Source: Chloroherpetonaceae bacterium
GTDB lineage: Bacteria > Bacteroidota > Chlorobiia > Chlorobiales > Thermochlorobacteraceae
Length of the DNA: 64,000 nucleotides
Reading direction: 5' to 3'
Assembly (NCBI GenBank): GCA_033763895.1
Contig: JANRJQ010000008.1
Location: 1-64,000 of the forward strand
This document shows, piece after piece, positions 4,344 to 51,639 of this stretch. The notes beneath the pieces are model-generated. The model ran no database searches and was not told the DNA's origin. It saw only the letters and a program-made list of their open reading frames with translations. Both the position numbers and the translations under genes were made by a program. Position 1 is the stretch's first letter, and each line of letters starts with the position of its first letter.

Positions 4344-4904
4344 GAACAATAAATATTTGGAGGCTTTAATTAATAAGTAATAGGTCTATTGCACTGAATT
4401 ACCTCTAACAGCGCAAAATTATCCGAATAAGAATCTTGAAAAATCACTTCAGTTGATTGAATCAATCTCTCTTGAAAAACACAAGAAAGTCCAAAAAGGA
4501 TATTTCAAACGGCGCACGCTAATCACTAATCGCGCCAATGTTTTCAGCAATTATTTTTTTAGAAAAGAAATATCAGCCGTGGATTTTGAGTGATAAATAG
4601 CAGAACTCAAATATCAGAAATACAACGATAGAAGAGCGATTAATCTCTTAATGAAATGTTGAGTATGTGATGAGTAGAAAAAAGAAATGTAGGTTGAGTT
4701 AACACTCAGTGAAGCAGGCAGTATTGTTAACAACTGTTCTAATATAAACATCATTTGAGGAATAATGTCATCTCTGAAGAAAAATATAATCCGGTTTGGT
4801 TCTCAAGTTCGCTTAAAGAGCAGGGTTTACTTTATTTTTTGTGACTTGAAAAAAAGCCCCGACTATCGCCGAGGCTTCTGAAAAAATTGTAACTCCCTAT
4901 TAGT
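4344..4904. other. Intergenic region upstream of the 1065-residue NHL gene
   Basis: AT-rich, about 560 bases. Apart from the terminator at 4850-4876, belonging to the upstream NHL gene, I see no convincing gene; the longest plus-strand ATG frame I followed (from about 4539) has only 20 codons. Bases near 4358-4365 hold GGAGGCTTT, read on the minus strand as AAAGCCTCC 15 bases before the ATG. The next NHL gene has the same arrangement. Confidence 0.5.
4850..4876 (-). terminator. Rho-independent terminator of the 498-residue NHL gene
   Basis: On the minus strand an 8-bp stem (4868-4875 with 4856-4863, two G-U pairs), a four-base loop, then a run of Ts. It lies about 30 bases after the gene's stop codon. 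Confidence 0.8.
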
Positions 4905-6401: not shown

Positions 6402-6570
6402 TACTATGAATTTATCGGAGGCTTTCTAAAGGTTATCTGTTGGAATTACTTCGCTTTGCCTCGATTAGCGGAGGAATTCCTTAAAGTTAACATCTTAAGT
6501 TAACCAATTTGGATTTTACCAGAAAGCGCTCTTTGAAAGTCAAGTTTGAATAATTTCTGAGATTAGAAAG

Positions 6571-6602
6571 CAAAAAGGCGCTCTGATTAACTCAAAGCGC
6601 CC
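6571..6602 (-). terminator. Terminator of the FG-GAP protein gene
   Basis: Stem 6592-6601 with 6577-6586 (one mismatch), loop of five, followed on the minus strand by five Ts. It lies about 40 bases after the stop codon at 6643. Confidence 0.8.
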
Positions 6603-6642
6603 TTCCCCTAATCCTTTGTTAAATAAAATAATCTTAAATGAT

Positions 6643-9600: not shown

Positions 9601-10071
9601 CCCGTCTAAATCAATATCTGCCACAAAGACACCAAATGCGCCTACCAAATTAAGAGGAAGTAACACAACCGAAGTTCCTGTAAAACTGCCTGTCCCATCG
9701 CCCAAGCGAATCGATAAACTATTATTTATAGTGCCACCATTGGAGGTTACTAAATCGGGTCTGCCGTCGTTATTGACATCAGCGATAAACAAGTTGTTAG
9801 GAGGCCCGTCAACCGCAACGCTGGTCGTTCCGCTAAAACCACCTGCCCCATTACCAAGTCTCACCGATACAGAGTTGGATCCATTATCGGCAGTTAGCAA
9901 ATCGGGGCGTCCGTCCAAATTTACATCTGCCACCACAAGGTCTCGAGGAGATGTTCCTACACTCACGGTCGTTGGCGCAGAAAAACTTTGCGCAATGCTA
10001 TTTCGGTTTATTAAAATCAGAAAAAGATAGAGAAGCAGATATTTGGCAGCAGACACTAAAAATTTATTCAT
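6643..10071 (-). CDS. Secreted FG-GAP/VCBS double-propeller protein with type IX sorting domain
   Basis: 1142 residues from ATG 10069-10071; N-terminal signal segment ending near NSIAQ. Fourteen FG-GAP/VCBS repeats, each with a calcium-type loop such as DVNLDGRPD or DINKDGKPD. A short linker (LLNTTTITLNPFG) splits them seven and seven, so two integrin-alpha-like seven-bladed propellers are likely. The following module (FNGDVSYSFPFLEGSDNR to GFGEFAISGDG) closely matches the 1065-residue NHL protein, as does the rest up to QNYPNPFNPSTRIGYQ and KKMVLVK. Likely exported by type IX secretion as a calcium-dependent surface adhesin; the role is inferred from the fold only. Confidence 0.88.
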   Translation of the reverse strand: MNKFLVSAAKYLLLYLFLILINRNSIAQSFSAPTTVSVGTSPRDLVVADVNLDGRPDLLTADNGSNSVSVRLGNGAGGFSGTTSVAVDGPPNNLFIADVNNDGRPDLVTSNGGTINNSLSIRLGDGTGSFTGTSVVLLPLNLVGAFGVFVADIDLDGRQDYLVGNSNSVYFARGNGTGGVTDTTRIDIASQPRQVAVGDINKDGKPDFVAAAAGTNVVSARVGDGLGGFSFVDFENWNIGGATLPWSVILRDVNRDGNLDFITANRTSNDVTVRFGLGDGKFSTVSVSRYSVGGGATRVDASDLDLDGNIDIVSANRTGNSISILRGVGSGSFGTATNISVGNSPESIVASDVNQDGKPDLLVANSADNTVSVLLNTTTITLNPFGAAYGVSVGSTPNRIFVADVNLDGKPDILTAGRFANTVSVRLGDGIGGFTGTTEISVGDQPFGLFVADVNLDGKPDILTANQNAATVSVRLGDGSGNFSGTTEISVGSNPASVFVSDVNQDGKPDFVTANFSGTLSVRLGDGAGGFSGGSNFSPGGSPRNVFIADLNNDSRPDVISASGGANAAIVRIGNGTGSFPTGSTISAGIFTISVFSKDINNDGNPDIIASNNNSANVSVALATGGGAFSTATNYAVGTQPSSVFIADLNLDGKQDFVTGNNGSNSVSFRLGDGLGGFSSLSSISVGTNPLSVFVADVNLDGKPDILTADFNSNRVSVILNDQIPNYSGAPSGISAITYNNVTFTAGTLPLSTSFGVNATLTLNGNVELNGNTITVNNTATGAVAGTGRLFGTGSLVRAFNGDVSYSFPFLEGSDNRSATVAFTSGTGSGTLSFSFFPDPPGITGLPLTLISQPVNTVAPFYWRITSTGSPGTYTLTLNGANMLGVTNLSTLRIAKRAVSGSWSDAGIGTGVSNTGTTSAPVLSQSGMTGFGEFAISGDGVDNPLPVELQSFTARSTGDGAKLEWRTASEFENAGFLIYRDGNPIASFSTTASLKGKGTTSVAQSYSYVDSTAVYGKTYRYQLKDVSFSGRVTEHPPITLEMTVKRTPRAYALLQNYPNPFNPSTRIGYQIPAASLVSLTVYDVLGRVVQELVNANQDAGVYEVSFNASGIASGVYYYRMEVRSTGLQTVNFKQTKKMVLVK

Positions 10072-34524: not shown

Positions 34525-34574
34525 GACATTTTCATTCAATGCCGCGCCTTTTCTCTCATTCAAATGTAATTCAC

Positions 34575-35165
34575 ATGACATCCAATCGATTTTTATTCTT
34601 TACTCTCATAACGCTGAGTATCATTTTATTTTCAGGGTGCGACGGTTGCAGCAAAAAGCGAGAATTAACCTTAAACCGCCCAGACAGTTTAATTGAAATG
34701 AGAGCTGAAGAAACCCGAAGGAAATATCAGGAGGCGATGAAGGAAGCTAACGAAGCGGCGAAAGCGAAACCCCGCCCTGCTTCGCCTAAGGTCACTAAGC
34801 CACCCAAGCAAGCTGAACCCACAGAGCCGGAACCTGAAATGCAACAAGTTCAGACGATTTATGTTGAGCCCGGCATTGATTACTCAGCGATGGATAACAC
34901 GATTTCAGTCATCGAAGATAAGGTTCAAACAACGGTGGAATCGGCGAAGAGGCGGCTAAATAATAAAACCGGGTATATTCAGTATCAAATTTTTGTTGCG
35001 CCTACGGGACAAGTCAAGTCGGTTTCGATTTTACACAACGACCTTGACGCCGCCGCCGGGGCAGCCATTCAAGCAATTGTTCGCTCAACCAGTTTTAAGA
35101 AATGGAATCCAGCAGCAAATTCAGAGAATGAATACAAGTCGCCGTTGCTGAAATCAGTGTTCTGA
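34575..35165 (+). CDS. Lipoprotein with TonB/AgmX-like C-terminal domain
   Basis: 196 residues from ATG 34575; the frame opens twelve codons earlier but the lipoprotein signal (NRFLFFTLITLSIILFSGC) begins here, with the lipobox FSGC. A charged coiled segment and a Pro/Lys/Glu linker (about 60-95) follow. The C-terminal part (GYIQYQIFVAPTGQVKSVSI, then AAIQAIVRSTSFKKW) resembles TonB-C/AgmX-type periplasmic domains. Probably membrane-anchored and periplasmic, perhaps linking envelope machines. The assignment to TonB-C is by pattern only. Confidence 0.6.
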   Translation: MTSNRFLFFTLITLSIILFSGCDGCSKKRELTLNRPDSLIEMRAEETRRKYQEAMKEANEAAKAKPRPASPKVTKPPKQAEPTEPEPEMQQVQTIYVEPGIDYSAMDNTISVIEDKVQTTVESAKRRLNNKTGYIQYQIFVAPTGQVKSVSILHNDLDAAAGAAIQAIVRSTSFKKWNPAANSENEYKSPLLKSVF

Positions 35166-35259: not shown

Positions 35260-36345
35260 ATGCAACTCGACCGTATAGACATAAAGGGGTTTAAATCGAT
35301 AAACTCACTTTCACTTCATTTGAAGCCCATCAACATTCTCATTGGAGCAAATGGAGCGGGAAAATCAAATTTCATTTCGGTATTTAAACTTCTCAATGAA
35401 TTAATTAAAGAAAATCTTCAAAAATATATTCAGGTTGAAGGTGGTGCCAATTCGCTCGCTCATTTTGGTGTTAAAGTCACACATAAAATTGAACTAACTC
35501 TCGGTTTTGGCATCAATACCTATCACTTATCTCTATTACCAACACAGAATGATATATTATTGATTGATATTGAACGGTGTACCATACACGACAAAACCAA
35601 GTACACAGAACCCTATCATCAATACACGACAGCAGATAGATACGAAACAAATCTCACTCGTGATTCTTCTGGTGTAGCACAATTTGTAAGAAAATGTTTT
35701 CAAGAATGGCGTGTGTATCATTTTCATGATACCAGTTCGAACTCGGCCGTTAAAAGAACTACAGATATCAATGACAACCTTCACCTTCGGCCGGATGGAG
35801 GAAACTTAGCGGCGTTCCTCTATCGATTGAAAGTTGCAGAGTATGATTCCTATCGCAATATTCGAGATACTATACGCCTCATTGTGCCTTATTTTGATGA
35901 CTTTCTCTTGCGAGCAAATCCCGTTAACCCAAATACCATAAAATTAGAATGGTATTCCAAAGGCTCAGATTATCCATTTCAAGTTTACCATCTCTCTGAT
36001 GGAACTTTGCGATTCATTTGTTTGGCAACCCTTTTTTTGCAACCTGCTCATTTAATGCCATCCACGATTTTAATTGATGAGCCCGAATTAGGACTTCATC
36101 CTTATGCCATTAATTTACTTGCTAGTTTCATCAAAAGCGTCAGTTCCATTAAACAAGTGATTATCTCAACGCAATCAGTTTCGCTTATTAATCATTTTTC
36201 AGCGGAAGATATTATTGTGGTTAATCAAAAAAATAGAGTCTCCTCTTTTGAAAGGCTTTCTGAGGAAAGACTTAGCAATTGGCTTGAAGAATATTCGCTA
36301 GGAGAACTTTGGGAAAAGAATGTATTTGGCGGAAGACCTGAATAA
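35260..36345 (+). CDS. OLD-like AAA family ATPase (AAA_21/AAA_15)
   Basis: 361 residues. Walker A GANGAGKSN (about 29-37) after MQLDRIDIKGFKSI. Signature-like LSDGTLRFICLATL, Walker B ILIDEPELGLHP (about 271-282) and the following IISTQSVSLINHF, typical of ABC-type ATPases of the OLD/RecF/SMC branch. Unlike OLD proteins it has no C-terminal TOPRIM domain; the next gene supplies a TOPRIM-like protein one base after this stop. Such ATPase/TOPRIM pairs are common in phage defence and abortive infection. Defence role is inferred. Confidence 0.85.
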   Translation: MQLDRIDIKGFKSINSLSLHLKPINILIGANGAGKSNFISVFKLLNELIKENLQKYIQVEGGANSLAHFGVKVTHKIELTLGFGINTYHLSLLPTQNDILLIDIERCTIHDKTKYTEPYHQYTTADRYETNLTRDSSGVAQFVRKCFQEWRVYHFHDTSSNSAVKRTTDINDNLHLRPDGGNLAAFLYRLKVAEYDSYRNIRDTIRLIVPYFDDFLLRANPVNPNTIKLEWYSKGSDYPFQVYHLSDGTLRFICLATLFLQPAHLMPSTILIDEPELGLHPYAINLLASFIKSVSSIKQVIISTQSVSLINHFSAEDIIVVNQKNRVSSFERLSEERLSNWLEEYSLGELWEKNVFGGRPE

Positions 36346-36346
36346 A

Positions 36347-37015
36347 ATGGTACGGTTGAATTTTTTAGTGGAAGGAGAAACGGAAGAAACTTTTGTAAGA
36401 GATTTGCTTACGCCTCACTTTTCACAACTCGAAATTTACTGCACCGCTAGGCGGGTTGAAACCAAAAGAGCGAATGGAAAAATTTATAGGGGAGGAATAA
36501 CTAATTATGAAAAAGTAAAAAAAGATTTACTGAGGTGGATGAAAGAAGATACAAATGCTCATTTTACTTCAATGTTTGACCTTTATGCACTCCCTTCAGA
36601 TTTCCCAAAGTATAATGAATCGTTAGGAATCCGTGACCCATATAAAAAGGTTCAATTTCTTGAACAATCGTTCTTTGAGGATATTGAATACCGCCGTTTT
36701 ACGCCATATATCCAATTGCATGAATTTGAAGCTTTGCTTTTTTCAGATGTCAATATCATTGAGCAGAGGCTAAAACCTTTTCAACCCCGCACAAAGTTAG
36801 AAGACTTAAACAAAATCTTATTTGAATGTCATTCGCCCGAATTAATTGATGATGGAATCCAAACGGCACCTTCAAAAAGACTCTTGGTACTTTACCCTGC
36901 TTATCAAAAACGACTTTATGGGAGTTTAATTTCCAAAGAAATTGGATTAGCCACGATTCAAAGTAAATGCCCACACTTCCATTGGTGGATAACGACATTG
37001 CAAGGTCTTAAATAA
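36347..37015 (+). CDS. DUF4276 family TOPRIM-like protein, partner of the ATPase
   Basis: 222 residues from ATG 36347, directly after the TAA at 36343-36345 (TAAAATG). LNFLVEGETEETFVRDLL at the N terminus has the acidic VEGxTE motif of TOPRIM-type folds, and YIQLHEFEALLFSD around residue 125 is the DUF4276 hallmark. Probably a nuclease activated or restrained by the adjacent ATPase, as in two-gene ATPase/TOPRIM defence systems (inference). Translational coupling is expected from the spacing. Confidence 0.8.
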   Translation: MVRLNFLVEGETEETFVRDLLTPHFSQLEIYCTARRVETKRANGKIYRGGITNYEKVKKDLLRWMKEDTNAHFTSMFDLYALPSDFPKYNESLGIRDPYKKVQFLEQSFFEDIEYRRFTPYIQLHEFEALLFSDVNIIEQRLKPFQPRTKLEDLNKILFECHSPELIDDGIQTAPSKRLLVLYPAYQKRLYGSLISKEIGLATIQSKCPHFHWWITTLQGLK

Positions 37016-37236: not shown

Positions 37237-37962
37237 ATGGCTAACATCAATTTTGGTTTTGAGCATCATGCATCAAAATTGTTTCATCCGCGCATCGAAA
37301 ATAGTATCAATCATCTTCAAGCCTCAGCGCTGCAAGGGCAAGCAACTAACCCGATGATGAATATGCTCGTTCCGATGGTTATTGAAACCTCTGGAAGAGG
37401 CGAGCGCGCATTCGATATATTCTCACGATTGCTTCGTGAACGCATCATTTTTTATGGCAATGTGGTTGACGACCACTCTGCAGGTTTGGTGATTGCACAG
37501 CTGATTTTTTTGGAATCGGAAGATCCGGAGCGCGATATCTATCTCTACATTAATTCGCCCGGAGGCAGCGTTTCGGCAGGGCTTGGCATTTATGATACAA
37601 TGAATTTTATCCGTGCCGATGTGGCCACTGTGTGTGTTGGAATGGCGGCTTCGATGGGTGCGTTTTTGCTTTCATCGGGTGCGAAAGGCAAGCGTGCATC
37701 ACTTCCACATTCACGCATTATGATTCATCAACCTTCGGGTGGGGCGCAAGGTCAGGAAACCGATATTTTGATTATGGCCGATGAAATTCGCAAGACGCGT
37801 GTATTGCTTGAAGAGATTTTAGCAAAGAATACGGGTCAAACGGCTGACCAAGTGCGAAAAGATTCAGAACGAGACCGTTGGATGTCGGCACCGGAAGCGA
37901 AGGCTTACGGGCTGATTGATGAAATTTTTGAAAAGCGGCCTGCTTCAACCGAAAAGAAGTGA
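37237..37962 (+). CDS. clpP: ATP-dependent Clp protease proteolytic subunit
   Basis: 241 residues, with about 40 residues more than usual at the N terminus, possibly a propeptide. Core motifs are [19 protein letters not shown], the catalytic Ser in [11 protein letters not shown] (about 139), the catalytic His in [15 protein letters not shown] (about 164) and the later Asp in KDSERDRWM. Forms the tetradecameric protease barrel with a Clp ATPase; no clpX is adjacent. Single gene with its own terminator. Confidence 0.95.
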
Positions 37963-38310: not shown

Positions 38311-38673
38311 ATGGTATCCTTTTTAGCTGATGAAAGTGTGGATTACCGAATTGTTCAATATCTAAGAAATGCTGGCTATTCCGTGAAATCAATACAGGAA
38401 ATCGCACCTTCCGCCACGGACGAACAAGTTCTAACAATTGCTGAAAATGAAAAATTAGTTCTTGTAACTGAGGATAAAGATTTTGGGGAATTAACTTTCA
38501 GATTAAAAAAAAATTCTACCGGTATTGTTCTTCTACGTTTTGAAACAATTGATCTTGAATCTATATGCACTTCACTCTCGAAAGCTTTTCGTGATGCGGA
38601 AAAACTTTTTAATAATTTTACCGTGATTTCGTTAAATAAAATCAGAATGAAACTCATACGGGTTCAACCGTAG
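38311..38673 (+). CDS. DUF5615 PIN-like toxin
   Basis: 120 residues. FLADESVDYRIVQYLRNAGY at the N terminus with early acidic residues, and LVTEDKDFGELTFRL around residue 50, give the acidic cluster of PIN-like (Mut7-C type) nucleases. LKKNSTGIVLLRF is also typical of the family. Downstream of the DUF433 antitoxin, with convergent mpl two bases away. Likely an RNA-cleaving toxin of a type II module (inference from family). Confidence 0.85.
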   Translation: MVSFLADESVDYRIVQYLRNAGYSVKSIQEIAPSATDEQVLTIAENEKLVLVTEDKDFGELTFRLKKNSTGIVLLRFETIDLESICTSLSKAFRDAEKLFNNFTVISLNKIRMKLIRVQP

Positions 38674-40343: not shown

Positions 40344-43300
40344 ATGTTTACTCAAGGTCAAATAGTTAAGAATATTTTGATTAATGAACCTGTAAAGATA
40401 ACGCAGGTTCAAAAAATAGGCACTGATTATGCAATTACTTTTTCGGGAATCAATTCTAATCAAGTTGGAAAGAAAATGCTTTCTGAAAAGGAAATTGAAC
40501 AATGTGAAATTATCAGTTCTGATGGCTTATTTGATTTTACTGGGAATCCACTTCATTTTAAGTTGTTTGCTGAGGCAGAACGAATACACTCCGCTTATCA
40601 ATTTGATCCGCTATATGCTGTCAATTGCAGTATAGTTGACCCACTACCCCATCAAGTTGAAGCTGTTTACAAACATTTACTCCCACTGCCCAAAATACGT
40701 TTTTTGCTCGCTGATGATACAGGAGCCGGAAAAACCATCATGACAGGTTTAATACTAAAGGAACTACTTGCTAGAGGGATTATAGAACGCATTTTAATTA
40801 TAACACCGGGTGGCCTTACTAAGCAATGGCAAGAAGACGAATTAGGGTTCAAATTTAATATGAACTTTAAACTTGTTAACCGAAGTATTTTCACAGCTGA
40901 ACCAACGGTATTTCATTTTTCAAATCGTGTGGTTTCATCAATGGATTTTATTTCAAGGCCGGAAATTATGGAGGTTCTCATTCAAACCCATTGGGATATC
41001 ATAGTTTTTGATGAAGCTCATAAACTTTCTGCATATACATACGGGAATAAAAAATATTTTTCACAACGCTATCAAGCTGCTTACCAACTTTCTAAGCAGT
41101 GTGAACATTTGTTATTACTTACGGCCACACCGCACCGAGGGCGCGCTGACACATTTCAAATGCTTCTTCAACTACTTGATGAAGATATATTTGCCACCAA
41201 TGATTTAGCAGAAACAAGAGTAAAGGAAATCGAGCAAAATGGAATAAATCGTTTTTTTATAAGACGATTGAAAGAGGATATGAAGGATTGGAATGGAAAA
41301 CCACTCTATAAAGATAGGTTTACCCAAACTGTTTCTTATGAATTGACGGAGGAAGAAAAACAGTTATATGATGAAGTAACAAACTATTTAACCAAACGAA
41401 AGGCTGAAGCCGCTGAAGAAAAAAATATTCATGTCTCACTTGCATTAACTGTAATGCAGAGACGATTAGCGAGCAGCTTATTTGCTATAAAAAATACCCT
41501 TGAAAGGCGGTGGAAGTCATTGCTTAGTCTTGTGGAAGATCTTGAAAAAAATCCATCTCTTTGGAAAGAAAAGCATAAACTAGATAATTTTGATATCACT
41601 AATGAAGATGATTATGATGACTTGGAAGATGAAGAACGGGACCTATTAGAAAGACTGCTGAATGATCCAAAAAAATTCAAGCTCTTTACAACATCAAAAA
41701 ATATCGATGAAATCAGGACTGAGGCGAATGAATTAAAACGTCTTTTTGAGATGGCCAAAGCCTTGGTTGATCGAAATCAGGAAGAAAAAAAGTTTCATGA
41801 AGTACAAAAAATATTAAGAGATAAAGGTGTTTTAGAAAACAAAGAAAAACTCGTCATTTTTACCGAACATAAAGATACTCTTGATTATTTAAAGGATAGA
41901 CTATCAAAAAGTCACGGGTATCAGATTGCTACGATTCACGGAGGAATGTCGGTAGATGAACGAAGACAAGCGCAGTTAGAGTTTTATACACCTGATGTTT
42001 CTATACTTATTGCCACTGACGCAGCCGGTGAAGGTATAAATCTCCAATTTTGCAGGCTCTTAATTAATTGGGATATACCTTGGAATCCCAATCGTTTAGA
42101 GCAACGAATGGGTAGAATACATCGATATGGTCAGAAACAAGATGTTTTTGTTTTTAATTTAGTTGCTTCCAATACAAGAGAAGGCGCTGTACTCAAAAGA
42201 CTACTCTCAAAACTCGATAATATACGGCGGGCAATGGGAGATGACCGCGTTTACGATGTTATTCAAGATGTATTAGAAAATATTCCTTTGGAGAAAATCT
42301 TACAATCTGTACTTAATGGAGCTGAAAATGAATTCTCTCAATTTTTAAGCAAAAGCGATGATGATCATTATCAGATTTTTCGAGAAAAAATAAATAACCA
42401 AAAAAAGGAGCTTGCACGTTCATCTGTTGATTATAAAGAAGCAAGAGAATTGAAGGATTTAAGTGACGAAAAAAGATTACAACCGATTTACATAAGACTT
42501 TTTTTTGAGACAGCTTTCAATTCATTGGGTGGAAAGTTTACCGAAGTTAGAAAGGGAATTTATAGAATTGAATATTTGCCATCACTAATTTCTGAAATTC
42601 TGAAAAATGAATACAATCTAAATCCTGAGATAATTTCTTCTATCAAATTCTGCTTTGACAAACAGATTTTTTTAGAATTTCAAAACTTTGGGGACATCGG
42701 CCGCTTACAGTTTATCAATCCGGGCAATATCTTATTTGATTCACTTTTGAGAGTTGTTATACAACAATATCGGGAGAGTATGCTAAAGGGAACGGTTCTT
42801 GTTTCTGCAGAAGATACACATGAACACTTTGCGTATTTGGTTAAATCACAAATCACGGACAATAGATCAAATAACAACGGAGAAAGTGTCGCAGATGAAA
42901 AGCTCAGCTTAGTCTTTCGAAATCAGACAAACACTTGGGAACAGACTTCCCCTGCCAAAATTATTGACTTAAAACCCCCGCTTGTCTTCGCAAAGACTTA
43001 TCTACCTCCTTCTCCAGTTCAACTTAATGATATTGAAGAGTGGAGTTATTTAAATATCACAAAGCCGCAGTATGATGAAGCACAATCAAGGATAAGAGCA
43101 GATATTGATAGTAGAAAACGAAATATTGATGAAGCATTTACCCAATTACTTATATCGATACAGCAAGATATATCAGATTTACAGGGAAAATTGCTTTTCG
43201 GTGATCCACGTTCTTCTGAGAAGCTGATTGAAAAGGAAAAACGCTATAAGGAGCTTATTGATCGAAAAAAAGTTCGTTTATCCGATTTGGAGCGAATGAC

Positions 43301-43766
43301 TGAACTTAGTAAAAAGCCACCAGAAGTTTTGGGTTGCGCTTATATTATCCCACTTTCAAAACTTGAGTACGAGTCTTTCTTTGGAATGAGCCGTGATGAA
43401 GAGGTTGAGACAATTGCAATGAATTTTTCTATGGATTTTGAAATGAAAGATGGCTGGGTACCCACAGATGTCAGTAAGCTTAACGAAGGGTATGATATTC
43501 GTAGTCTTTCACCTGAACACTTAAAAAGATATATTGAAGTAAAGGGTCGAAGCGACCAAGATGGTAATGTGTTCTTAACTGAAAATGAAATGAATCGCTT
43601 AGCGCAACTTGGAGAAACAGCGTGGTTATATATAGTTTTGAATTGCAAGTCTATACCTGAACTTTATCGAATTCGAAACCCAGCAAAGGTTCTTCAATTT
43701 ACTCCTAAAGGAAAAGGGATTCAATATTTTTTAGCTATGGAGGAATGGAAAAAAGTAGTTCGATAA
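40344..43766 (+). CDS. SNF2-type helicase with C-terminal DUF3883 (DrmD-like)
   Basis: 1140 residues. Helicase motifs: Walker A DDTGAGKTI near residue 125, DEAH near 222, LTATPH near 258, then the second RecA lobe (IATIHGGMSVDERRQ, IATDAAGEGINLQF, QRMGRIHRYGQ; about 500-625). The C-terminal YIEVKGRS and following strands (about 1064-1120) fit DUF3883, a PD-(D/E)XK-related fold. The family includes DrmD of DISARM and helicases of other methylase-linked islands. First gene of a plus-strand cluster ending at 51245. Probably translocates along DNA; whether it cleaves or unwinds is unknown. Confidence 0.85.
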   Translation: MFTQGQIVKNILINEPVKITQVQKIGTDYAITFSGINSNQVGKKMLSEKEIEQCEIISSDGLFDFTGNPLHFKLFAEAERIHSAYQFDPLYAVNCSIVDPLPHQVEAVYKHLLPLPKIRFLLADDTGAGKTIMTGLILKELLARGIIERILIITPGGLTKQWQEDELGFKFNMNFKLVNRSIFTAEPTVFHFSNRVVSSMDFISRPEIMEVLIQTHWDIIVFDEAHKLSAYTYGNKKYFSQRYQAAYQLSKQCEHLLLLTATPHRGRADTFQMLLQLLDEDIFATNDLAETRVKEIEQNGINRFFIRRLKEDMKDWNGKPLYKDRFTQTVSYELTEEEKQLYDEVTNYLTKRKAEAAEEKNIHVSLALTVMQRRLASSLFAIKNTLERRWKSLLSLVEDLEKNPSLWKEKHKLDNFDITNEDDYDDLEDEERDLLERLLNDPKKFKLFTTSKNIDEIRTEANELKRLFEMAKALVDRNQEEKKFHEVQKILRDKGVLENKEKLVIFTEHKDTLDYLKDRLSKSHGYQIATIHGGMSVDERRQAQLEFYTPDVSILIATDAAGEGINLQFCRLLINWDIPWNPNRLEQRMGRIHRYGQKQDVFVFNLVASNTREGAVLKRLLSKLDNIRRAMGDDRVYDVIQDVLENIPLEKILQSVLNGAENEFSQFLSKSDDDHYQIFREKINNQKKELARSSVDYKEARELKDLSDEKRLQPIYIRLFFETAFNSLGGKFTEVRKGIYRIEYLPSLISEILKNEYNLNPEIISSIKFCFDKQIFLEFQNFGDIGRLQFINPGNILFDSLLRVVIQQYRESMLKGTVLVSAEDTHEHFAYLVKSQITDNRSNNNGESVADEKLSLVFRNQTNTWEQTSPAKIIDLKPPLVFAKTYLPPSPVQLNDIEEWSYLNITKPQYDEAQSRIRADIDSRKRNIDEAFTQLLISIQQDISDLQGKLLFGDPRSSEKLIEKEKRYKELIDRKKVRLSDLERMTELSKKPPEVLGCAYIIPLSKLEYESFFGMSRDEEVETIAMNFSMDFEMKDGWVPTDVSKLNEGYDIRSLSPEHLKRYIEVKGRSDQDGNVFLTENEMNRLAQLGETAWLYIVLNCKSIPELYRIRNPAKVLQFTPKGKGIQYFLAMEEWKKVVR

Positions 43767-43824
43767 GCACCTTAAATTTTCTTTTGGTTCGCTCTCTTTA
43801 TAATAACCACACAATTTTTTGAAA

Positions 43825-44190
43825 ATGAAGGCATTGAGAAAACGCCCAAGCAACGTTCGTGGCAAACGAAGAAGCGTAACATCTTTTGTAACATCTTTGG
43901 AAAAGTTAGCCAAAGATAACAAGCCCAATGTATTTGTTGCGCATTTTGACGGAAAATGGGTCGTTTGGAACTCCGCTAACTTAGATCGACAGTTTGAGTA
44001 TGCTTCACTATCTAGTGCTAAAAGAAAGGCAGTAACTATTTTCCCTAAGCAAAATATTCATTGGGTAAAAAAAGATGGGACAATTATAACACTTAAACCT
44101 AACCAATTATCTCGGTTAAGTGGTTCTCCTAAATCCGTTAGGCTTCGGAAAGATGTAAACACTGTTACAAGTGAGGGCATCACTGTTTAA
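43825..44190 (+). CDS. Small basic protein with DUF2188-like segment
   Basis: 121 residues from ATG 43825 (a TTG two codons earlier also opens the frame). Basic N terminus (MKALRKRPSNVRGKRRS). Residues 35-85 (VFVAHFDGKWVVWNSANLD to IHWVKKDGTI) follow the DUF2188 pattern of a strand pair with a tryptophan, a helix starting at SAKRKA, and a last strand with Gly. Function unknown. Lies between the helicase and the TIR-like gene, 58 bases after the former and 24 before the latter, so cotranscribed. Confidence 0.6.
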   Translation: MKALRKRPSNVRGKRRSVTSFVTSLEKLAKDNKPNVFVAHFDGKWVVWNSANLDRQFEYASLSSAKRKAVTIFPKQNIHWVKKDGTIITLKPNQLSRLSGSPKSVRLRKDVNTVTSEGITV

Positions 44191-44214
44191 ATCAACCTAT
44201 TCCCTTTTCCTACA

Positions 44215-44841
44215 ATGGGTAGACTACCTAATGTGAACTCTGTCTTTATTAATTGCCCCTTTGATGACGATTTTTTTTCACTTCTGAAGCCACTTCTTTT
44301 TACTGTTATATATTCGGGATTTGAACCCAAACTTTCTTCAACAAAAGATTCTTCGAAACCTCGCTTAGAAACTATTGTTGAACTTATGAAAGGCTCATTG
44401 TATTCCATTCATGACCTTTCTCGTGTAGAACCTAATTCAAAAGGACTACCTCGTTTTAATATGCCTTTTGAATTTGGCATTGATTATGGGTTAAAAATTT
44501 CGGGTAACAAACAGTGGAAGAAGAAGGAAATGCTCGTTTTTGAGAGAAGCCCTTACGAAGCGAAACCCATTCTTTCCGATACGGGTGGGTTTGACTTTTC
44601 AGCCCATAACAATAAGCAAGACCATATTGTAAAATCCGTCAGAAATTGGTTATCTAACAAAAACCCCTCTATTCCAAAAGACAAAGCTATCTTTCAACTT
44701 TACTTGAAATTTAGTCATGACTACGCCATTGTTTGTAAAGAAGAAGGTTATAACCCTGACCGTTTTGATGAGCAGCCGATTGATTCCCTCATCATAGAAA
44801 TAAAAAAATGGATCGAAGCCAATAAACAGTCTAATGCCTGA
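44215..44841 (+). CDS. Rossmann-like protein (TIR/deoxyribosyltransferase-like), candidate effector
   Basis: 208 residues. Begins with SVFINCPFDDDFFSLLKPL (about 9-27), then FTVIYSGFEPKL, a helix, YSIHDLSRVE (about 64) and RFNMPFEFGIDYG (about 81). This order (strand-CPFD, helix, H-D-[LI]-S, PFE-G) occurs in a group of defence-associated proteins with a Rossmannoid fold related to TIR domains and nucleoside deoxyribosyltransferases. Glu in MPFEFG is a candidate catalytic residue, as in NAD-cleaving TIR enzymes. Its stop overlaps the methylase start by eight bases, so translation is coupled. Function is inferred only. Confidence 0.6.
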   Translation: MGRLPNVNSVFINCPFDDDFFSLLKPLLFTVIYSGFEPKLSSTKDSSKPRLETIVELMKGSLYSIHDLSRVEPNSKGLPRFNMPFEFGIDYGLKISGNKQWKKKEMLVFERSPYEAKPILSDTGGFDFSAHNNKQDHIVKSVRNWLSNKNPSIPKDKAIFQLYLKFSHDYAIVCKEEGYNPDRFDEQPIDSLIIEIKKWIEANKQSNA

Positions 44842-47800
44842 ACCAAAAAAACTTATTGAAGTCGCACTTCCAATTCAAGAAATTTCTGCCGAAAGTGTGC
44901 GAGATAAATCCATTCGCCACGGACATATTTCGACCTTGCACTTATGGTGGGCGCGCCGACCGCTCCCCGTTTGCCGTGCCGTCGTTTTTGCAAGCCTCGT
45001 TCCTGACCCTGACGATGAATACTGCCCGACTCCTTTCCGAGAAGCCGTTTCTAATTTGCTTGATGAACGATATAAACCAAATCAAGCCACGCCTGACACC
45101 CGCCGCAATCGGCTTTTAGCCTTCATTGGCAAATTCTCTGATACGTATTTAAAAAATGAAGACATAGGCAAAACCACACCACCAAAAAAAACACTTTCAG
45201 AAAACTCTCTCATTAAGTGGGAGAACAAAAACAACGAACAAATATTAACGCTTGCACGTAAACTCATTTTTGTGGCGTATCAAGCTACGTTACCTGAAAA
45301 CCGTGATACGCCATTTTCCCAGCTTTCAACGCAATTTGATTCATTGTATTCCGCAATTAAAACAGTAGAAAAGGCTCTTTACGACATACCCAACCGCCAT
45401 ATAAACACGCCAGAAATTGCCAAGAAAGAGAATGACCTTCATCAAGCAATTGAAGTTTTCCTTAATGCAATGCCAAGCGTTTTTGACCCCTTTGCAGGAG
45501 GCGGCGCTATCCCTTTAGAAGCGGCAAGGCTTGGATGTAGAAGTTATGGGAACGACCTTAACCCTGTTGCTCATATCATACAAAAAGGGAGTTTGGAATA
45601 CCCTCAGAAGTATGGCAAACCAATAACCTTTACCAAAAGTGAATTCATTGCACGCTACGGTGAAAAGGAATGGCATGTGCAAAACCCTGATTTTCCTGAT
45701 AACCCTACCATCACCATCCCTAACCGCTTAGCATTTGATGTAGAATTTTTTGCGAAGAAACTTCTTGCCAAAACCGAAGCAGAAATTGGCCATTATTACC
45801 CAACCGTAAATGGGAAAAAACCGATTGCCTATTATTGGGCGCGTGTGGCAACCTGTGCTAACCCCACTTGTGGCGCAAAAGTCCCGCTTCTGAAACAATT
45901 TTATTTGGTTAATACCAAAACCAAACACATTTATCTAAAACCCAATATTGAAGGCAAATCCATTTCGTTTGACATTGTTCAAGGGAAATATGATGAGAAA
46001 AAACTTGAAGGATGGAATAATAGAGGAAATCTAAAATGCCCTATTTGTAACAGCGTAACAGACGTAGTAAAAATTAAAGACCAAAGTATTCAAGGAAAAT
46101 TAGAGGAAGTGATTCTTTCCGTAATTGAAGAAGGTGAAAACGGCAAATCATATCGTAAATCAACGATGTTGGAACAAGCCATTGTTAAAGAAATACCCAA
46201 TGTTTCACCGCCAAACGAGAAAATGCAACGGAATTCTGCCGGAGGAGATACATTTAGTTGGGGCATCTCAGAATGGGGACAACTGTTTTCTCCGCGGCAA
46301 TTGCTTGCCTTACAGACCTTGGTTAAACACCACCACAGTCTTTGCGATGAACTTAATGCCAAAACCGATGACTATGGTAAAGCCATAGCGGCATACTTGG
46401 CGATTTTGATTGATAGGGTTTCTATTATCAATACTACTTTTGGAAGATTAAATATCAGGCGTGAAACACTTGAACATCCCTTTTCAAAACAAGCTATCCC
46501 AATGATTTTTGATTACCCTGAATCAAATCCTTTTTGCAATGCCACCGGCAGTGCCTTAAATCAATTGGAATGGATTACCCGATATATTGAATCAGAAAGT
46601 CAAATTTCAATTTGGAGTAACTTAAAACAAGCCTCAAGCGGTGAAAAATCTCAATTTCCTGAAAAATCTCTTACCGCGGTCATCACCGACCCTCCCTATT
46701 ATGATGCGATTGCGTATGCCGACCTTTCCGACTTTTTTTATGTATGGCTCAAGCGAACTCTTGGGGAGGTATTTCCTGAAAACTTCGCCACACCCCAAAC
46801 GCCGAAGATGGAAGAATGTACGGCGCTCAAGCACCATCGCAATGGCAGTGAAGAAGATGCTAAAACTCATTTTGAAACAAAATTACGCCAGATTTTCGAT
46901 GCTCTTGAGCATCAAACCCGCGATATTGTCAGCATTATGTTTGCCCACCAAAGCACGGAAGCGTGGACAACGCTGTGCAATTCCATTCTTGGCGCACGGA
47001 TGAATATCACCGGAAGTTGGGCGATTGATTCAGAAATGCAAAACCGTAGTTTAGCCCTTGCAGGCAACGTGTTAGAATCTTCAATCACGGTTCCCTGTAA
47101 GCCATCATCGCGCGTTGGAGTTGGTAGTTACCAAGAGGTTCGGGGGTTCATTGAAAAGCGCATTCAAAAAGAAGTCAACGAGCTTTTTGCGTTAGGGTTT
47201 CGTGGCGCCGATTTGTTAACGGCGTGTTTTGGGCAAGCGGTGAGTGAATTTGGGAAATATGAACGTGTTGAAAAGGGCGATGGCAGTGTGGTGTCGGTGG
47301 CAGAGCTATTGGATTTGGCCAAAGAAAGCGCATTTAATGCCTTGGTTAAAGGCTTTGAAGGTGATGATTATACGAAGTTTTACATTTCGTGGCTGCAACT
47401 GTATGGCTTTAGCGCTTCTGATTTTGATGATATTACCAAGTTGGCTCGCGTAGGGCTTAATATTGATGCCAAAGATTTGGTAAGCGCCGGTATTCTACCT
47501 AAAACGACATTTAAGCCGGCAACCAAGCCAAAAGATGATGATAACGACAAGGAAGAACAAAATAATAGACCGCCACGTAAAAAAACGGGCGAAACCATCC
47601 ATAAATTGGGGACATGCCTTGAGCGTTTCCGCGCCTTTCCTACGCTTGGTACAAGGAATGAAGAGCCTTTGATCAATATGGCGCATCGGGTAATGGCACT
47701 TTATCAATCGCAAGACCGTGCTGCACTTTTATCCTACTTGGCGAGCGTGACAGAAAGTTCAAACGGAACGGTGTGGCGCGTTCTCAATTCGCTCGGCGAA

Positions 47801-47941
47801 GTGTTGCCAAAAGGAACGGAAGATGCAAAATGGGTAGTGGATTTGCTTCTTCAGCGAGATAGCCTTATGAGAGAGGTTAAGGCACTGCGTTCAAAAGCAA
47901 ACGATAGAGATCCGGATAATCAAGGCTTCCTATTCAATTGA
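44834..47941 (+). CDS. DUF1156 adenine-specific DNA methylase with zinc ribbon
   Basis: 1035 residues. N-terminal DUF1156 (KKLIEVALPIQEISAES, HISTLHLWWARRPLPVCRA). SAM motif FDPFAGGGAIPLEAARLG (about 217-234). A zinc ribbon in the insert (CANPTCGAKVPLL near 340 and CPIC near 401). Catalytic motif VITDPPYYDAIAYADLSDFF (about 615-634), where DPPY indicates N6-adenine or N4-cytosine methylation. The C-terminal part is long and unassigned. Likely methylates host DNA as the self mark of the surrounding system. Unrelated in length to ordinary type II methylases. Confidence 0.88.
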   Translation: MPEPKKLIEVALPIQEISAESVRDKSIRHGHISTLHLWWARRPLPVCRAVVFASLVPDPDDEYCPTPFREAVSNLLDERYKPNQATPDTRRNRLLAFIGKFSDTYLKNEDIGKTTPPKKTLSENSLIKWENKNNEQILTLARKLIFVAYQATLPENRDTPFSQLSTQFDSLYSAIKTVEKALYDIPNRHINTPEIAKKENDLHQAIEVFLNAMPSVFDPFAGGGAIPLEAARLGCRSYGNDLNPVAHIIQKGSLEYPQKYGKPITFTKSEFIARYGEKEWHVQNPDFPDNPTITIPNRLAFDVEFFAKKLLAKTEAEIGHYYPTVNGKKPIAYYWARVATCANPTCGAKVPLLKQFYLVNTKTKHIYLKPNIEGKSISFDIVQGKYDEKKLEGWNNRGNLKCPICNSVTDVVKIKDQSIQGKLEEVILSVIEEGENGKSYRKSTMLEQAIVKEIPNVSPPNEKMQRNSAGGDTFSWGISEWGQLFSPRQLLALQTLVKHHHSLCDELNAKTDDYGKAIAAYLAILIDRVSIINTTFGRLNIRRETLEHPFSKQAIPMIFDYPESNPFCNATGSALNQLEWITRYIESESQISIWSNLKQASSGEKSQFPEKSLTAVITDPPYYDAIAYADLSDFFYVWLKRTLGEVFPENFATPQTPKMEECTALKHHRNGSEEDAKTHFETKLRQIFDALEHQTRDIVSIMFAHQSTEAWTTLCNSILGARMNITGSWAIDSEMQNRSLALAGNVLESSITVPCKPSSRVGVGSYQEVRGFIEKRIQKEVNELFALGFRGADLLTACFGQAVSEFGKYERVEKGDGSVVSVAELLDLAKESAFNALVKGFEGDDYTKFYISWLQLYGFSASDFDDITKLARVGLNIDAKDLVSAGILPKTTFKPATKPKDDDNDKEEQNNRPPRKKTGETIHKLGTCLERFRAFPTLGTRNEEPLINMAHRVMALYQSQDRAALLSYLASVTESSNGTVWRVLNSLGEVLPKGTEDAKWVVDLLLQRDSLMREVKALRSKANDRDPDNQGFLFN

Positions 47942-47987
47942 TACGAATATTTTCAAATACGGTTAAACACCAACCACCTTTACATTC

Positions 47988-50900
47988 ATGACTTACATCA
48001 ATAACCATCAACGCGATATTCTTTTTAAGGCATTTGGCACATTTTTGGAGGCAATGCGAGATTACTTTTCGGGTAAATTCAGCAATGCTTTTGGCGTGTC
48101 TTGGCCTAAAGAGTATGAAAGGATTTTGAATAGTGGGCAGTTACAAAATTGGCAAGAGGGCATTGCAGGTGGAATAAATCCTAAAGGGTTGATTGATTAT
48201 CCTCATTTAAAGCAAATTGCAATTCAGTTCAAAGAACACCTGAGAAGTGACTTTAAGAACGATGTTACGCAGCTGCCAACGCATTTTGAGACGATGAAAG
48301 ATGTGCGCGATAAGTTGGCACACTTTCAAGATATTAACCAAGATGAATACAATGATGTGTTCATTCAAATGAAGAAAGTCCTCGGTAAACTCAAATTGGA
48401 TGAATTGAAGGCAGAGCTTTCCCTATTACAAGATGGAAAACCTGAGGCAAGTACAAAGAAAGCAAAACCAAGCCCAACCTTATTTCAAACACAACCTTGG
48501 TTTAATGTCGTAAAACCTCATAGTGATATTGCACAAGGGCGTTTAGATGAATCAGTATTTGCCGCAAATCTCAGTGAGGTTGCATTAGGGAGCGGCCCTG
48601 AAGTGTATAACAATCCCGTTCTCTTTTTTTCAAAAACACATATCACTGAGGGGTTAAAAAATTTAGCAAAACGTGTGGTTATGGGGCTTAATGGTGATGA
48701 AGAAGCCGATAACCGAACTATTCAGCTACAAACCAATTTTGGCGGTGGGAAAACTCACTCACTGATTTCCCTCTTGCATTTATGCAAAAACGGAAACCGG
48801 TTAATTGAGGGTTCGCAGGTTGTTAATGAGCTTTTTAATGGAATCGCCGCTCCCAAGTTTGAGAAAGCCAATATTGCAGTATTTACGAATGCAACGAATG
48901 ATGTTTCGAACGGGCGCCGCGTAGGCGACCTTCATATTCAAACCCTTTGGGGAGAATTAGCTTATCAATTATGTGGAAAAGATGGGTTTGAGATTGTTCA
49001 AAAAAATGACAAAGAGTTGATTTCGCCGTCTTCGGAAGTGTTTAAACAAGTTTTAATAAAAGCCCAGCCTGCACTGATATTGATTGATGAACTCACGGAT
49101 TATTGTGTAAAGGCATCGGCTCGTGTTGTTGGTAAAAGCACATTGGGTGAGCAAACGGTTTCATTTATGCAAGCCCTAACCGAGGCTGTAACACAAGTTA
49201 AGCAAGCCGTTTCGGTAGTAACACTGCCATCGAGTGCAGAAGAAGCGGGGACCTCAGATGCTTCTATCGCGATGTTAACAAGTTTAAGTAAGCGGGTTGG
49301 GAGACTTTCAAACGATACAATGCCTGTCTCTGATGATGAAATCTATCAAGTTATCCGCCGTCGGCTTTTTGACTTTGCCGGTAATGAAGAAGATATAGTT
49401 CAAGTTGCCTCTCAGTATGTCGATTTTTATCAGACAATTGCAAAGGAAGTGCCAAGCAATGCCAGTAAATCGAATTATAAAGATCGTATTCAAAAATCAT
49501 ACCCGTTTCACCCCGAACTCATAGATATTTTTAAGAATCGTTGGGCAAGCAGTTCACAATTTCAAAGAACTCGCGGCGTATTGAGGCTTCTTGCACTTTT
49601 GGTGAGTGATTTGTGGAAAAGGAAGGACTCTCTTTCAGGTGGTAACCTTCTTATTCAAACCAGTGATGTCAACTTGGATAATTTAGAAGGGTATCGTGCA
49701 CAAATTCAGAGATTATATGGAAACGGATTTAGTGCGGTTTTGTCTGCAGATGTATTGGGTTCAATATCAAATTCGGCTAAACTAGACTTAGAGAAAAATG
49801 GGTATGGAAGCGGTCGGTTCGCCCAAACAGTCACATCTTGCATTTTGCTTAACACGATTGGTGCGGATGGGGCAAATAAAGGGGTATCTGTTCAAGAGTT
49901 AAAACTACAATTGCTTTCACCAAATGGTATTAATCATAACACAGTCAATACGGCGTTAGATGATTTAGAAGCCTGTGCTTACTATTTGTACTATGCTCAA
50001 AATGGGAACCAAAAAAGGTATTGGTTTCATATTAAGCCAAATCTTAACATTTTAATTAATCAGGCAAAGTCAGACATTTCTACCGATGAAATTTATGCTG
50101 AAGTTATTCGCCGAATTAAGGACAAAACGAAATCGGTTCAACACTTCAATATTTTAGTTGACCCTTCAACTGATGTTTCAGAGCAAAAAAAACTCACCTT
50201 AATTATCTTAAATCCAAGACATACTTATAGCAATAGAAGTTTTGTTCATGACACCCAAACACAAATCACCTCTATAGCTACCAAAAAAGGGTCAACAGCG
50301 CGGACTTATGCTAATACAATTCTTTTTTTGTTGCCTTCAGAAGAAGCAATGTTGAAATTGAACGAATTGGTTCGAGTCTATTTAGCAGCAGTCAAGGTGA
50401 ATTCAGAATACATAGGGCAATTAGAAACCGAGCAAAAGCATGAATTAAAGAAGAAAATCGAGGATTCATCAAAAATTTTAGAGTCAGGAATTTCAACTGC
50501 TTATTCAGTCGTTGCAAAACATCACACGCGTGAAGGCATTAAAATATTGATTTTAACTGAACCTAAAGACAGTTTGGATTCACAAATTGATTTCACACTC
50601 AAAAAAAAGTTGATTGAAGAAGAATGGTTGCTCGAAGGAATTGGGATTAATTTGATGCAACGATTAAATGTTTTTCCAACACCTGAAAAATCCATTCGTC
50701 TAACAGACTGTTATGAAAGTTTTTTGCGTTATAACGACTTCCCAATGATTCTTAATGAAAGTGTGTTTTCAAACTCTATTCTTCTTTATTGTTTGAACAA
50801 GCAATTTTGTATTGGTTCAGGCGACGGAAAAACTTGGAACAAAATCTACTTTGGTGAAACTATCCCTTTTCTGAAAATAGATGATGAGAGTTATTGGATT

Positions 50901-51245
50901 TTGGATAAAAGTTCATTTGTTGAACCATCAGTTTCACCACAACCTATTCCAACACCAATTCCTCGATCTGAAAATCCATTACAACCTCCCGTGCCATTAC
51001 CGCCAGTTGAACCATTAAATAAAATCAATAGGCTTACAGTTTCAGGGGATGTTTCTTTAGAACATTACACAGAACTTTTCAGGTGTTTCATTGCTCCCTT
51101 TACTAAAAACGGGCATAAAGTTGATATTTCTATAAACTTTACCATTAAGTCTAGCGAATCAAATTCATTAGAGGAAAATAGTCCACTTGTGAATGCTGCA
51201 AAGGAAGCTGCTATGCAGTTGGGTTTAAGACTTATGAAAGAGTAG
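47988..51245 (+). CDS. HEPN (Swt1-type)-DUF499 AAA ATPase
   Basis: 1085 residues. The N-terminal 135 residues look like a Swt1-type HEPN domain with Arg107 and His112 in VRDKLAHFQ, an R-x4-H catalytic motif. From about 185 the DUF499 ATPase begins (LFFSKTHITEGLKNLAKRVV); Walker A NFGGGKTHS near 250 and Walker B ALILIDELTDY near 360 are clear. A Pro-rich linker (PSVSPQPIPTPIP) precedes a C-terminal domain of about 75 residues (LTVSGDVSLEHYTELFRCF). DUF499 ATPases are known mainly as neighbours of DUF1156 methylases. Probable large DNA-sensing ATPase with an RNase-type toxin domain (inference). Confidence 0.85.
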   Translation: MTYINNHQRDILFKAFGTFLEAMRDYFSGKFSNAFGVSWPKEYERILNSGQLQNWQEGIAGGINPKGLIDYPHLKQIAIQFKEHLRSDFKNDVTQLPTHFETMKDVRDKLAHFQDINQDEYNDVFIQMKKVLGKLKLDELKAELSLLQDGKPEASTKKAKPSPTLFQTQPWFNVVKPHSDIAQGRLDESVFAANLSEVALGSGPEVYNNPVLFFSKTHITEGLKNLAKRVVMGLNGDEEADNRTIQLQTNFGGGKTHSLISLLHLCKNGNRLIEGSQVVNELFNGIAAPKFEKANIAVFTNATNDVSNGRRVGDLHIQTLWGELAYQLCGKDGFEIVQKNDKELISPSSEVFKQVLIKAQPALILIDELTDYCVKASARVVGKSTLGEQTVSFMQALTEAVTQVKQAVSVVTLPSSAEEAGTSDASIAMLTSLSKRVGRLSNDTMPVSDDEIYQVIRRRLFDFAGNEEDIVQVASQYVDFYQTIAKEVPSNASKSNYKDRIQKSYPFHPELIDIFKNRWASSSQFQRTRGVLRLLALLVSDLWKRKDSLSGGNLLIQTSDVNLDNLEGYRAQIQRLYGNGFSAVLSADVLGSISNSAKLDLEKNGYGSGRFAQTVTSCILLNTIGADGANKGVSVQELKLQLLSPNGINHNTVNTALDDLEACAYYLYYAQNGNQKRYWFHIKPNLNILINQAKSDISTDEIYAEVIRRIKDKTKSVQHFNILVDPSTDVSEQKKLTLIILNPRHTYSNRSFVHDTQTQITSIATKKGSTARTYANTILFLLPSEEAMLKLNELVRVYLAAVKVNSEYIGQLETEQKHELKKKIEDSSKILESGISTAYSVVAKHHTREGIKILILTEPKDSLDSQIDFTLKKKLIEEEWLLEGIGINLMQRLNVFPTPEKSIRLTDCYESFLRYNDFPMILNESVFSNSILLYCLNKQFCIGSGDGKTWNKIYFGETIPFLKIDDESYWILDKSSFVEPSVSPQPIPTPIPRSENPLQPPVPLPPVEPLNKINRLTVSGDVSLEHYTELFRCFIAPFTKNGHKVDISINFTIKSSESNSLEENSPLVNAAKEAAMQLGLRLMKE

Positions 51246-51318: not shown

Positions 51319-51639
51319 TCAGCATTCATAGACCAATTTCCCTTTTTCGAGGATAAGACTTTCTAACAATGCATGAACCTTTCTTCCTTTTTCAATTTCT
51401 TCAATTGTTTTGACCAAAATGTCTTTTGGAATTGGAATATCTCGTAGGGCTTTTCTTGCTCGAATTCTTCTTTCCTTTGGCGTTTCTTCACTTGAGTCGA
51501 GAATTACACATAAATCAATATCACTATCTTCGGAGGGAATCCCCCACGCTTGAGATCCAAAAAGGAATATTCGCTTCGGTTTAAATTCATTCACTAAACG
51601 AGTAACCAAAAGTGATATTTGCTGCTCCTGTTTTTCCAT
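51319..51639 (-). CDS. MNT-type nucleotidyltransferase domain protein
   Basis: 106 residues. GSQAWGIPSEDSDIDLCVIL carries the GS-x10-DxD signature of minimal nucleotidyltransferases, which in HEPN/MNT modules are antitoxins that AMPylate the HEPN toxin. No separate HEPN gene lies next to it; the nearest HEPN domain is at the N terminus of the convergent DUF499 protein. It may be a solitary remnant or may act on that domain (speculative). Confidence 0.8.
   Translation of the reverse strand: MEKQEQQISLLVTRLVNEFKPKRIFLFGSQAWGIPSEDSDIDLCVILDSSEETPKERRIRARKALRDIPIPKDILVKTIEEIEKGRKVHALLESLILEKGKLVYEC

Follow-up and report, generated by a model that had tools for sequence, protein, structure and literature searches.

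The HEC-01 gene pair of a Chloroherpetonaceae bacterium: an OLD-branch ATPase and a predicted stand-alone OLD-type TOPRIM protein

Can an OLD-like nuclease be divided over two genes, and would such a pair serve in defense against phages? This question is raised by two adjacent genes, A and B, in a 64,000-nucleotide stretch of DNA from a Chloroherpetonaceae bacterium (the window, by which we mean the whole stretch analyzed). An earlier, sequence-only reading had proposed that an OLD-branch ATPase without a TOPRIM domain of its own is followed one base later by a DUF4276 protein with the motifs VEGETE and HEFEALL, that both together are a split OLD-like nuclease, and that this little-studied variant parallels PARIS and AbiL-type systems. 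The features considered here are as follows.

35260..36345, plus strand: gene A (HEC-01A), an OLD/RecF-type ABC ATPase (AAA_21) of 361 aa (Pfam, PADLOC, model, motifs)
36347..37015, plus strand: gene B (HEC-01B), a DUF4276 protein of 222 aa, predicted stand-alone OLD-type TOPRIM nuclease (Pfam, PADLOC, model)
Residues 347-360 of A: C-terminal tail, LGELWEKNVFGGRP
40344..43766, plus strand: HmaA helicase (context, outside the pair; PADLOC HmaA, 1.3e-211)
44834..47941, plus strand: HmaB methylase (context; PADLOC HmaB, 1.1e-142)
47988..51245, plus strand: HmaC ATPase (context; PADLOC HmaC, 1.1e-146)

Identity and distribution of the gene pair

Both open reading frames (ORFs) are intact and co-directional. 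Gene A ends with the TAA at 36343-36345, and the best start of gene B is the ATG at 36347, 1 base past this stop (an earlier ATG at 36320 is the start used in the ORF list). VEGETE and HEFEALL were located at residues 8-13 and 125-131 of B, which bears out the arrangement described by the sequence-only reading. In Pfam, A matched AAA_21 (8.5e-30) and B matched DUF4276 (E = 2.3e-54), and in PADLOC the matches were HEC-01A for A (3.6e-148, residues 2-360) and, for the adjacent gene B, HEC-01B (6e-78). Judged by sequence, these matches are far beyond chance, and the pair, with both models matched by adjoining genes, is an already catalogued defense candidate, namely, HEC-01 of PADLOC-DB 2.0. The HECs were reportedly named in a 2024 preprint by Payne et al. 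HEC stands for Hma-embedded candidate, and several HECs, including HEC-06, are described as active (PMC12988326). Literature searches with DUF4276, PF14103, and spelling variants returned no papers, and a search with HEC-01 and its sister names returned no relevant paper among the matches listed. In contrast to what the sequence-only reading suggests, the pair was already catalogued.

A complete HmaABC operon (40344-51245) starts 3.3 kb downstream of the pair. The window copy therefore lies upstream of HmaA and not within the Hma operon; embedding was inferred from the class name of HEC-01 and was not taken as a requirement for membership. The pair has rpsT-side genes on one side and clpP on the other, as named by eye; between it and HmaA are clpP and an mpl-like gene, likewise named by eye, as well as a DUF5615 gene. 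The flanking ORFs at 34539-35165 and 37237-37962 encode 208 and 241 aa, and by reading neither is a helicase or a reverse transcriptase.

Several other features of the window were recorded. The DUF5615 gene between clpP and mpl (38311-38673) has a GC content of 34%. Two small genes inside the Hma operon, between HmaA and HmaB (43819-44190 and 44215-44841), remained without matches in Pfam and PADLOC (E values up to 0.01), and the second of them may be an embedded defense candidate. A small gene with a nucleotidyltransferase domain follows right after HmaC (51319-51639, minus strand), and 1146-10071 on the minus strand encodes three large, secreted-looking repeat proteins that, by reading, have a C-terminal NPFNPST...KKMVLVK segment in common.

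A scan for relatives gave 499 confirmed loci, and the best 80 were analyzed. A long ORF ended at the start of B in 77 of these 80 loci, and in the other three (L072, L102, and L103) the match begins less than 600 bases from a contig edge. The Walker A pattern was present in 74 of the 77 upstream ORFs; the exceptions are an altered P-loop (L041), an ORF cut by a contig edge (L076), and one with an N terminus that was not recovered (L092). A more divergent set found by HMM searches gave similar figures, with an upstream ORF in 40 and Walker A in 39 of 41 rows. Genes A and B are an almost fixed two-gene unit that travels together. No fused A-B gene was seen in the best 80 of the 499 loci, and one long reported frame elsewhere (G382:C216) is a candidate A-B fusion, for which extraction gave two ORFs. 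In one divergent locus (L113), two DUF4276 genes lie in tandem and both have an upstream ORF, with one set shortened.

Residue conservation was counted in the following samples. The 81 B sequences (80 loci plus the window) were reduced to 77 (alignment A1) by removing two with internal stops (L052 and L096), a near-copy of L063 (L064), and one short sequence (L092). The ATPase alignment (A2) contains 73 sequences and is without L034 (no start codon found), L064, the three loci without Walker A by pattern (L041, L076, and L092), and the three without an upstream ORF (L072, L102, and L103). The divergent set lacks 19 closer HMM-found loci, which extraction missed, and the partial hits L148, L151, and the second one in L113.

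The distribution of the protein family is patchy, as 80 of the 394 genomes from the phylum contained PF14103. A close homologue of A was detected in none of the 8 further genomes from the same bacterial family; weak ATPase matches were present in 3 of them, and in one (G334) a divergent DUF4276 gene adjoins. The genome to which the window belongs contains a second, divergent ATPase/DUF4276 pair on contig 14 (L002, 1483-3289), in which a DxD-type motif (HDQD) is kept, and on contig 11 (L172, 1090-2705) a third ATPase with a small partner that is TOPRIM-like by motif reading and has no Pfam hit. Relatives were found in 12 of 72,556 plasmid records. One of these records is an 11-kb mobilizable plasmid of Acinetobacter with the pair adjoining vapBC, and in Aeromonas the neighbors are an SNF2 gene on one side and a methyltransferase gene on the other. 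None of 50,697 phage records matched, and viral contigs gave one full-length match and one fragment. The GC content of the pair is 36.6%, compared to 42.4% for the window. Among the genomes of the family, clpP was found in 9 of 9 and rpsT in 8 of 9; where both were found outside the window's genome, they were on separate contigs, so that no clean empty site could be demonstrated. The GC content, the plasmid copies, and the absence of close A homologues from family relatives point to an acquired accessory module.

The ATPase and the predicted metal site of its partner

Gene A contains Walker A (GANGAGKS, residues 29-36), an LSDG motif (245-248), and Walker B with DEPE (273-276), and these ATPase motifs are strongly conserved among its relatives. 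No TOPRIM or nuclease domain was matched in A by Pfam. In Foldseek, the model of A (pLDDT 94.9) had OLD (6p74) at rank 1 with an E value of 1.4e-13, and the sequence profile of A likewise had 6p74 as its first match (1.1e-11); by VIA, SMC and Rad50 heads scored above OLD. Gene A is an OLD-branch ABC ATPase and, as had been proposed, is without its own TOPRIM. The switch motif, T304-Q305-S306, is kept in 73, 72, and 72 of the 73 clade ATPases, and the corresponding motifs in the other two ATPase/TOPRIM-like pairs of the window genome are SHS and THS.

At the C-terminal end of A, W351, N354, and G357 are each present in 73/73 clade ATPases, and residues 351-360 have a mean pLDDT of 77 in the lone model, a lower confidence than the rest. 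A strict LW..G pattern at this end was found in 17 of 38 divergent DUF4276-paired ATPases but in none of 20 RloB-paired ATPases or 179 control frames, and a loose L/I-W/Y pattern was found in 28, 6, and 32 of them, respectively; the two DUF4435-paired ATPases, which looked cut short, were left out of this comparison. The LW...N..GG tail, specific to DUF4276 partners, is a plausible docking element for B.

The AlphaFold2 model of B, built with 77 aligned sequences, had a pLDDT of 94.8 and a pTM of 0.90. Ranks 1 to 3 in Foldseek were OLD catalytic regions (E values of 1.3e-4 to 3.8e-4), the sole ones below 0.001 among 1382 matches, with low TM-scores of 0.38-0.45. In VIA-align, the OLD catalytic region 6nk8 was first (Z of 10.1, rmsd of 3.9, 175 residues aligned), followed by 2p62 (Z of 8.9, rank 5), PARIS AriB (Z of 8.3), and Gabija GajA (Z of 7.4). 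Unrelated folds appeared from a Z of 6.7, and the full-length Thermus OLD (6p74) came below them, with a Z of 6.1. Sequence searches for solved relatives gave chance-level matches: one chaperonin (E = 0.32) for a solved DUF4276 structure with alignment A1, and 2p62 (E = 0.35) plus three weaker chains with the broader profile A6. Profile comparison with the OLD TOPRIM was weak, with the clade reaching 12% (19 columns) and the broad family 56% (58 columns), and some of the 30 OLD rows were wrongly cut, which makes this comparison weaker; the values were 2% and 22%, respectively, against RloB, and 0.1-0.2% for controls. With modest Z values, B models as an OLD-type TOPRIM protein, a claim that rests on the OLD/PARIS/Gabija group lying above background together with matching active-site residues. 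The proposal of a split OLD-like nuclease fits this model.

The ligands of metal A in Burkholderia pseudomallei OLD are E400, D455, and D457, those of metal B are E404, T506, and E508, and the catalytic lysine is K562 (PMC6755086). We assigned residues of B to these by position, motif, and order, and not by measured superposition. Residue 1 of B aligns with residue 392 of 6nk8 in VIA-align, and, given an ungapped first strand, E9 and E13 of B would correspond to E400 and E404. Judging from the motifs, D78 would correspond to D455 as the first Asp of DxD, the spacing of E126-x-E128 fits that of T506-x-E508, and K188 is the best candidate for K562. Among the 77 clade proteins, E9, D78, E126, E128, and K188 are invariant and E13 is present in 76. 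These figures are inflated, as clade loci were selected with exact peptide patterns, EGETEETF and YIQLHEFE among them, and the HMM-found set of 39 divergent members is fairer: E9 was kept in 38 of the 38 with a letter at this position, D78 in 38/38, E128 in 38/39, K188 in 33/39, E126 in 30/39, and E13 in only 11/39. The acidic residues E9, D78, and E128 are thus conserved in both sets, in line with what a TOPRIM protein was expected to show.

The DxD motif of B is incomplete at its second Asp, because position 80 is Tyr in 76 of the 77 clade proteins and Phe in the remaining one. By reading, this Asp is kept in many divergent DUF4276 members, including the second pair of the window genome. In B. 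pseudomallei OLD, D457A alone had no discernible effect (PMC6755086), so the DxY of B need not abolish catalysis.

Relation to known ATPase/TOPRIM systems and genomic neighborhood

Like the OLD family (classes 1 to 3, including GajA and retron-Eco8), the pair combines an OLD-branch ABC ATPase with a predicted OLD-type TOPRIM with matching metal ligands. The TOPRIM Glu and the first DxD Asp of OLD also have counterparts in HEC-01B (E9 and D78). In OLD classes 1 to 3, however, ATPase and TOPRIM are fused, whereas HEC-01 consists of two polypeptides, and the DxD of OLD is DxY in the HEC-01B clade. In Gabija, the ATPase-TOPRIM gene has the GajB helicase beside it, whereas by reading the window pair has no flanking helicase.

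PARIS is described as class 4 OLD with split genes (PMC10568477 and PMC12796447). Among the ATPase/TOPRIM splits found described, it is the one with a worked-out mechanism, tRNA cleavage (PMC12409363), and PARIS-like modules are also recruited to BREX (PMC12839542). PARIS (AriA/AriB) and HEC-01 are alike in having separate, adjacent ATPase and TOPRIM genes and in occurring in BREX loci. B, however, had no AriB or DUF4435 match in Pfam or PADLOC at E values up to 1, the AriB chain has 306 aa compared to 222 aa for HEC-01B, and A falls outside the DUF4435-paired ATPases in a rough tree that has only two such proteins. AbiL (AbiLi/AbiLii, RloA/RloB) also has an ATPase with a separate TOPRIM-like partner, and A matched AbiLi (1.1e-21), but B had no RloB match in Pfam at E values up to 1, and the RloB-paired ATPases form their own clade (support of 1.0) without the strict LW tail. 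With regard to MADS, A matched MAD3 (PADLOC, 1.8e-28; NCBIfam, 107.7 bits), yet far below the NCBIfam MAD3 cut-off of 420 bits; no PADLOC model named mad4 matched B, and no mad models were among the matches listed for the other window genes scanned with PADLOC. In the rough ATPase tree, the window clade and most DUF4276-paired ATPases are apart from the RloB-paired and DUF4435-paired ones, except for the DUF4276-paired L130, L136, and L149, which fall with OLD/DUF4435 ATPases; fused OLD and DUF4435-paired proteins are represented by only two each in this tree, and several nodes, including deeper ones, have low support. By the sequence tests run, the HEC-01 pair is not PARIS, AbiL, or MADS. The parallel to PARIS and AbiL that had been drawn from the sequence therefore applies to the ATPase/TOPRIM split, but not to family membership.

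Among 110 flanking proteins of relatives, we found 7 BREX-1 PglZ, 3 HsdR, 2 PglX, and 2 DrmD, where some loci are near relatives, so that the 7 PglZ are not 7 independent events. The other flanking families among the matches listed had at most 3 members each, and some are housekeeping, such as leuA and M16 peptidase. These figures refer to 77 of the 80 loci (without L057, L085, and L090), to 110 of 141 proteins (those of 130-1399 aa), and to the best 25 of 127 Pfam and the best 25 of 176 NCBIfam families. In one locus (L197), the gene order is pglX, HEC-01, pglZ, and brxL, which places the pair inside BREX-1. Another BREX-1 locus with a HEC-01 pair (L192) also contains a PtuA-like ATPase at 2995-4269 (5.5e-102, under the curated cut-off). 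The 120 genes around 20 pairs matched 236 PADLOC models, compared to 25 for 120 control genes from the same genomes; as redundant models and not genes were counted, these numbers give the direction of the difference and not its size. The samples were 120 of 155 case ORFs and 120 of 150 control ORFs, the latter from 15 stretches (15 of 20 existed).

Probable function of the pair

Considering this genomic context, which is the basis for a role in defense, we think that the A/B pair is probably an autonomous two-gene anti-phage module of the HEC-01 type, i.e., an ATPase-gated OLD-type nuclease. In such a module, A would dimerize or oligomerize on ATP, and its conserved C-terminal LW...N..GG tail is the probable means by which it would hold B. 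An infection signal sensed by A would lead A to license B, which would then cut nucleic acid with two Mg2+ ions, and either the phage would be stopped directly or the cell would be killed. As the modeled B resembles the OLD catalytic region more closely than it does AriB, DNA is slightly favored over tRNA as its putative substrate.

One alternative is a PARIS-like tRNase, in which B cleaves a tRNA after its release by A, the sensor of a phage anti-restriction protein. The ATPase/TOPRIM split is the same, AriB is among the structural neighbors of B (Z of 8.3), and the pair occurs in a BREX-1 operon, where PARIS-like modules are recruited too (PMC12839542). Given that B matches neither AriB nor DUF4435, resembles the OLD catalytic region more closely, and has 222 aa compared to 306 for the AriB chain, we regard this alternative as unlikely. 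A toxin-antitoxin pair, in which A neutralizes B without specific phage sensing and which is kept by addiction, for example on plasmids, would agree with the fixed two-gene operon, with the compact copy beside vapBC on the 11-kb plasmid, and with TOPRIM_OLD toxins that are neutralized by AAA proteins (PMC10440598). It accounts less well for the pairs inside BREX-1 operons and adjoining restriction-modification genes and for the strong conservation of the ATPase motifs, and it appears similarly improbable.

Lower still is the probability that B has lost nuclease chemistry with the change from DxD to DxY and is a structural or nucleotide-binding regulator. Y80 in 76 of 77 proteins would agree with such a role, but the clade shows little or no variation at the remaining metal-ligand positions, and D457A alone was without discernible effect in B. 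pseudomallei OLD (PMC6755086). OLD ATPases can have cell-cycle roles, as in Cran1 (PMC12796447), and we therefore also considered a housekeeping or DNA-repair ATPase-nuclease like Cran1 in an archaeon. Apart from this precedent, the best VIA matches of A are SMC and Rad50 heads, and the window copy lies (by eye) between rpsT-side genes and clpP. The patchy occurrence of PF14103 in the phylum, the lack of a close A homologue in all 8 family relatives (even though G334 has a divergent DUF4276 gene by a weak ATPase match), and the copies on plasmids make a housekeeping role very unlikely.

Returning to the anti-phage module, we put forward one further idea as speculation that is rather less likely to be right than wrong by a wide measure: HEC-01 may be a split OLD lineage of its own, distinct from both PARIS and AbiL, with joint changes in its two partners (DxD to DxY in B and the T-Q-S switch in A). 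The tail of A would then act as an intrinsic latch, keeping B inactive until an ATP-dependent rearrangement, and the altered metal site might target a substrate other than duplex DNA.

ATPase/TOPRIM splits are recurrent in bacterial immunity, and the DUF4276 family is widespread, with no papers found on DUF4276/PF14103. What is new here is the mapping of residues onto the OLD two-metal site, the changes to DxY and T-Q-S in the clade, the ATPase tail specific to DUF4276 partners, and the position in BREX-1. If the pair works, it would be a further, separate split form of OLD nuclease and, besides PARIS, another BREX-associated back-up module.
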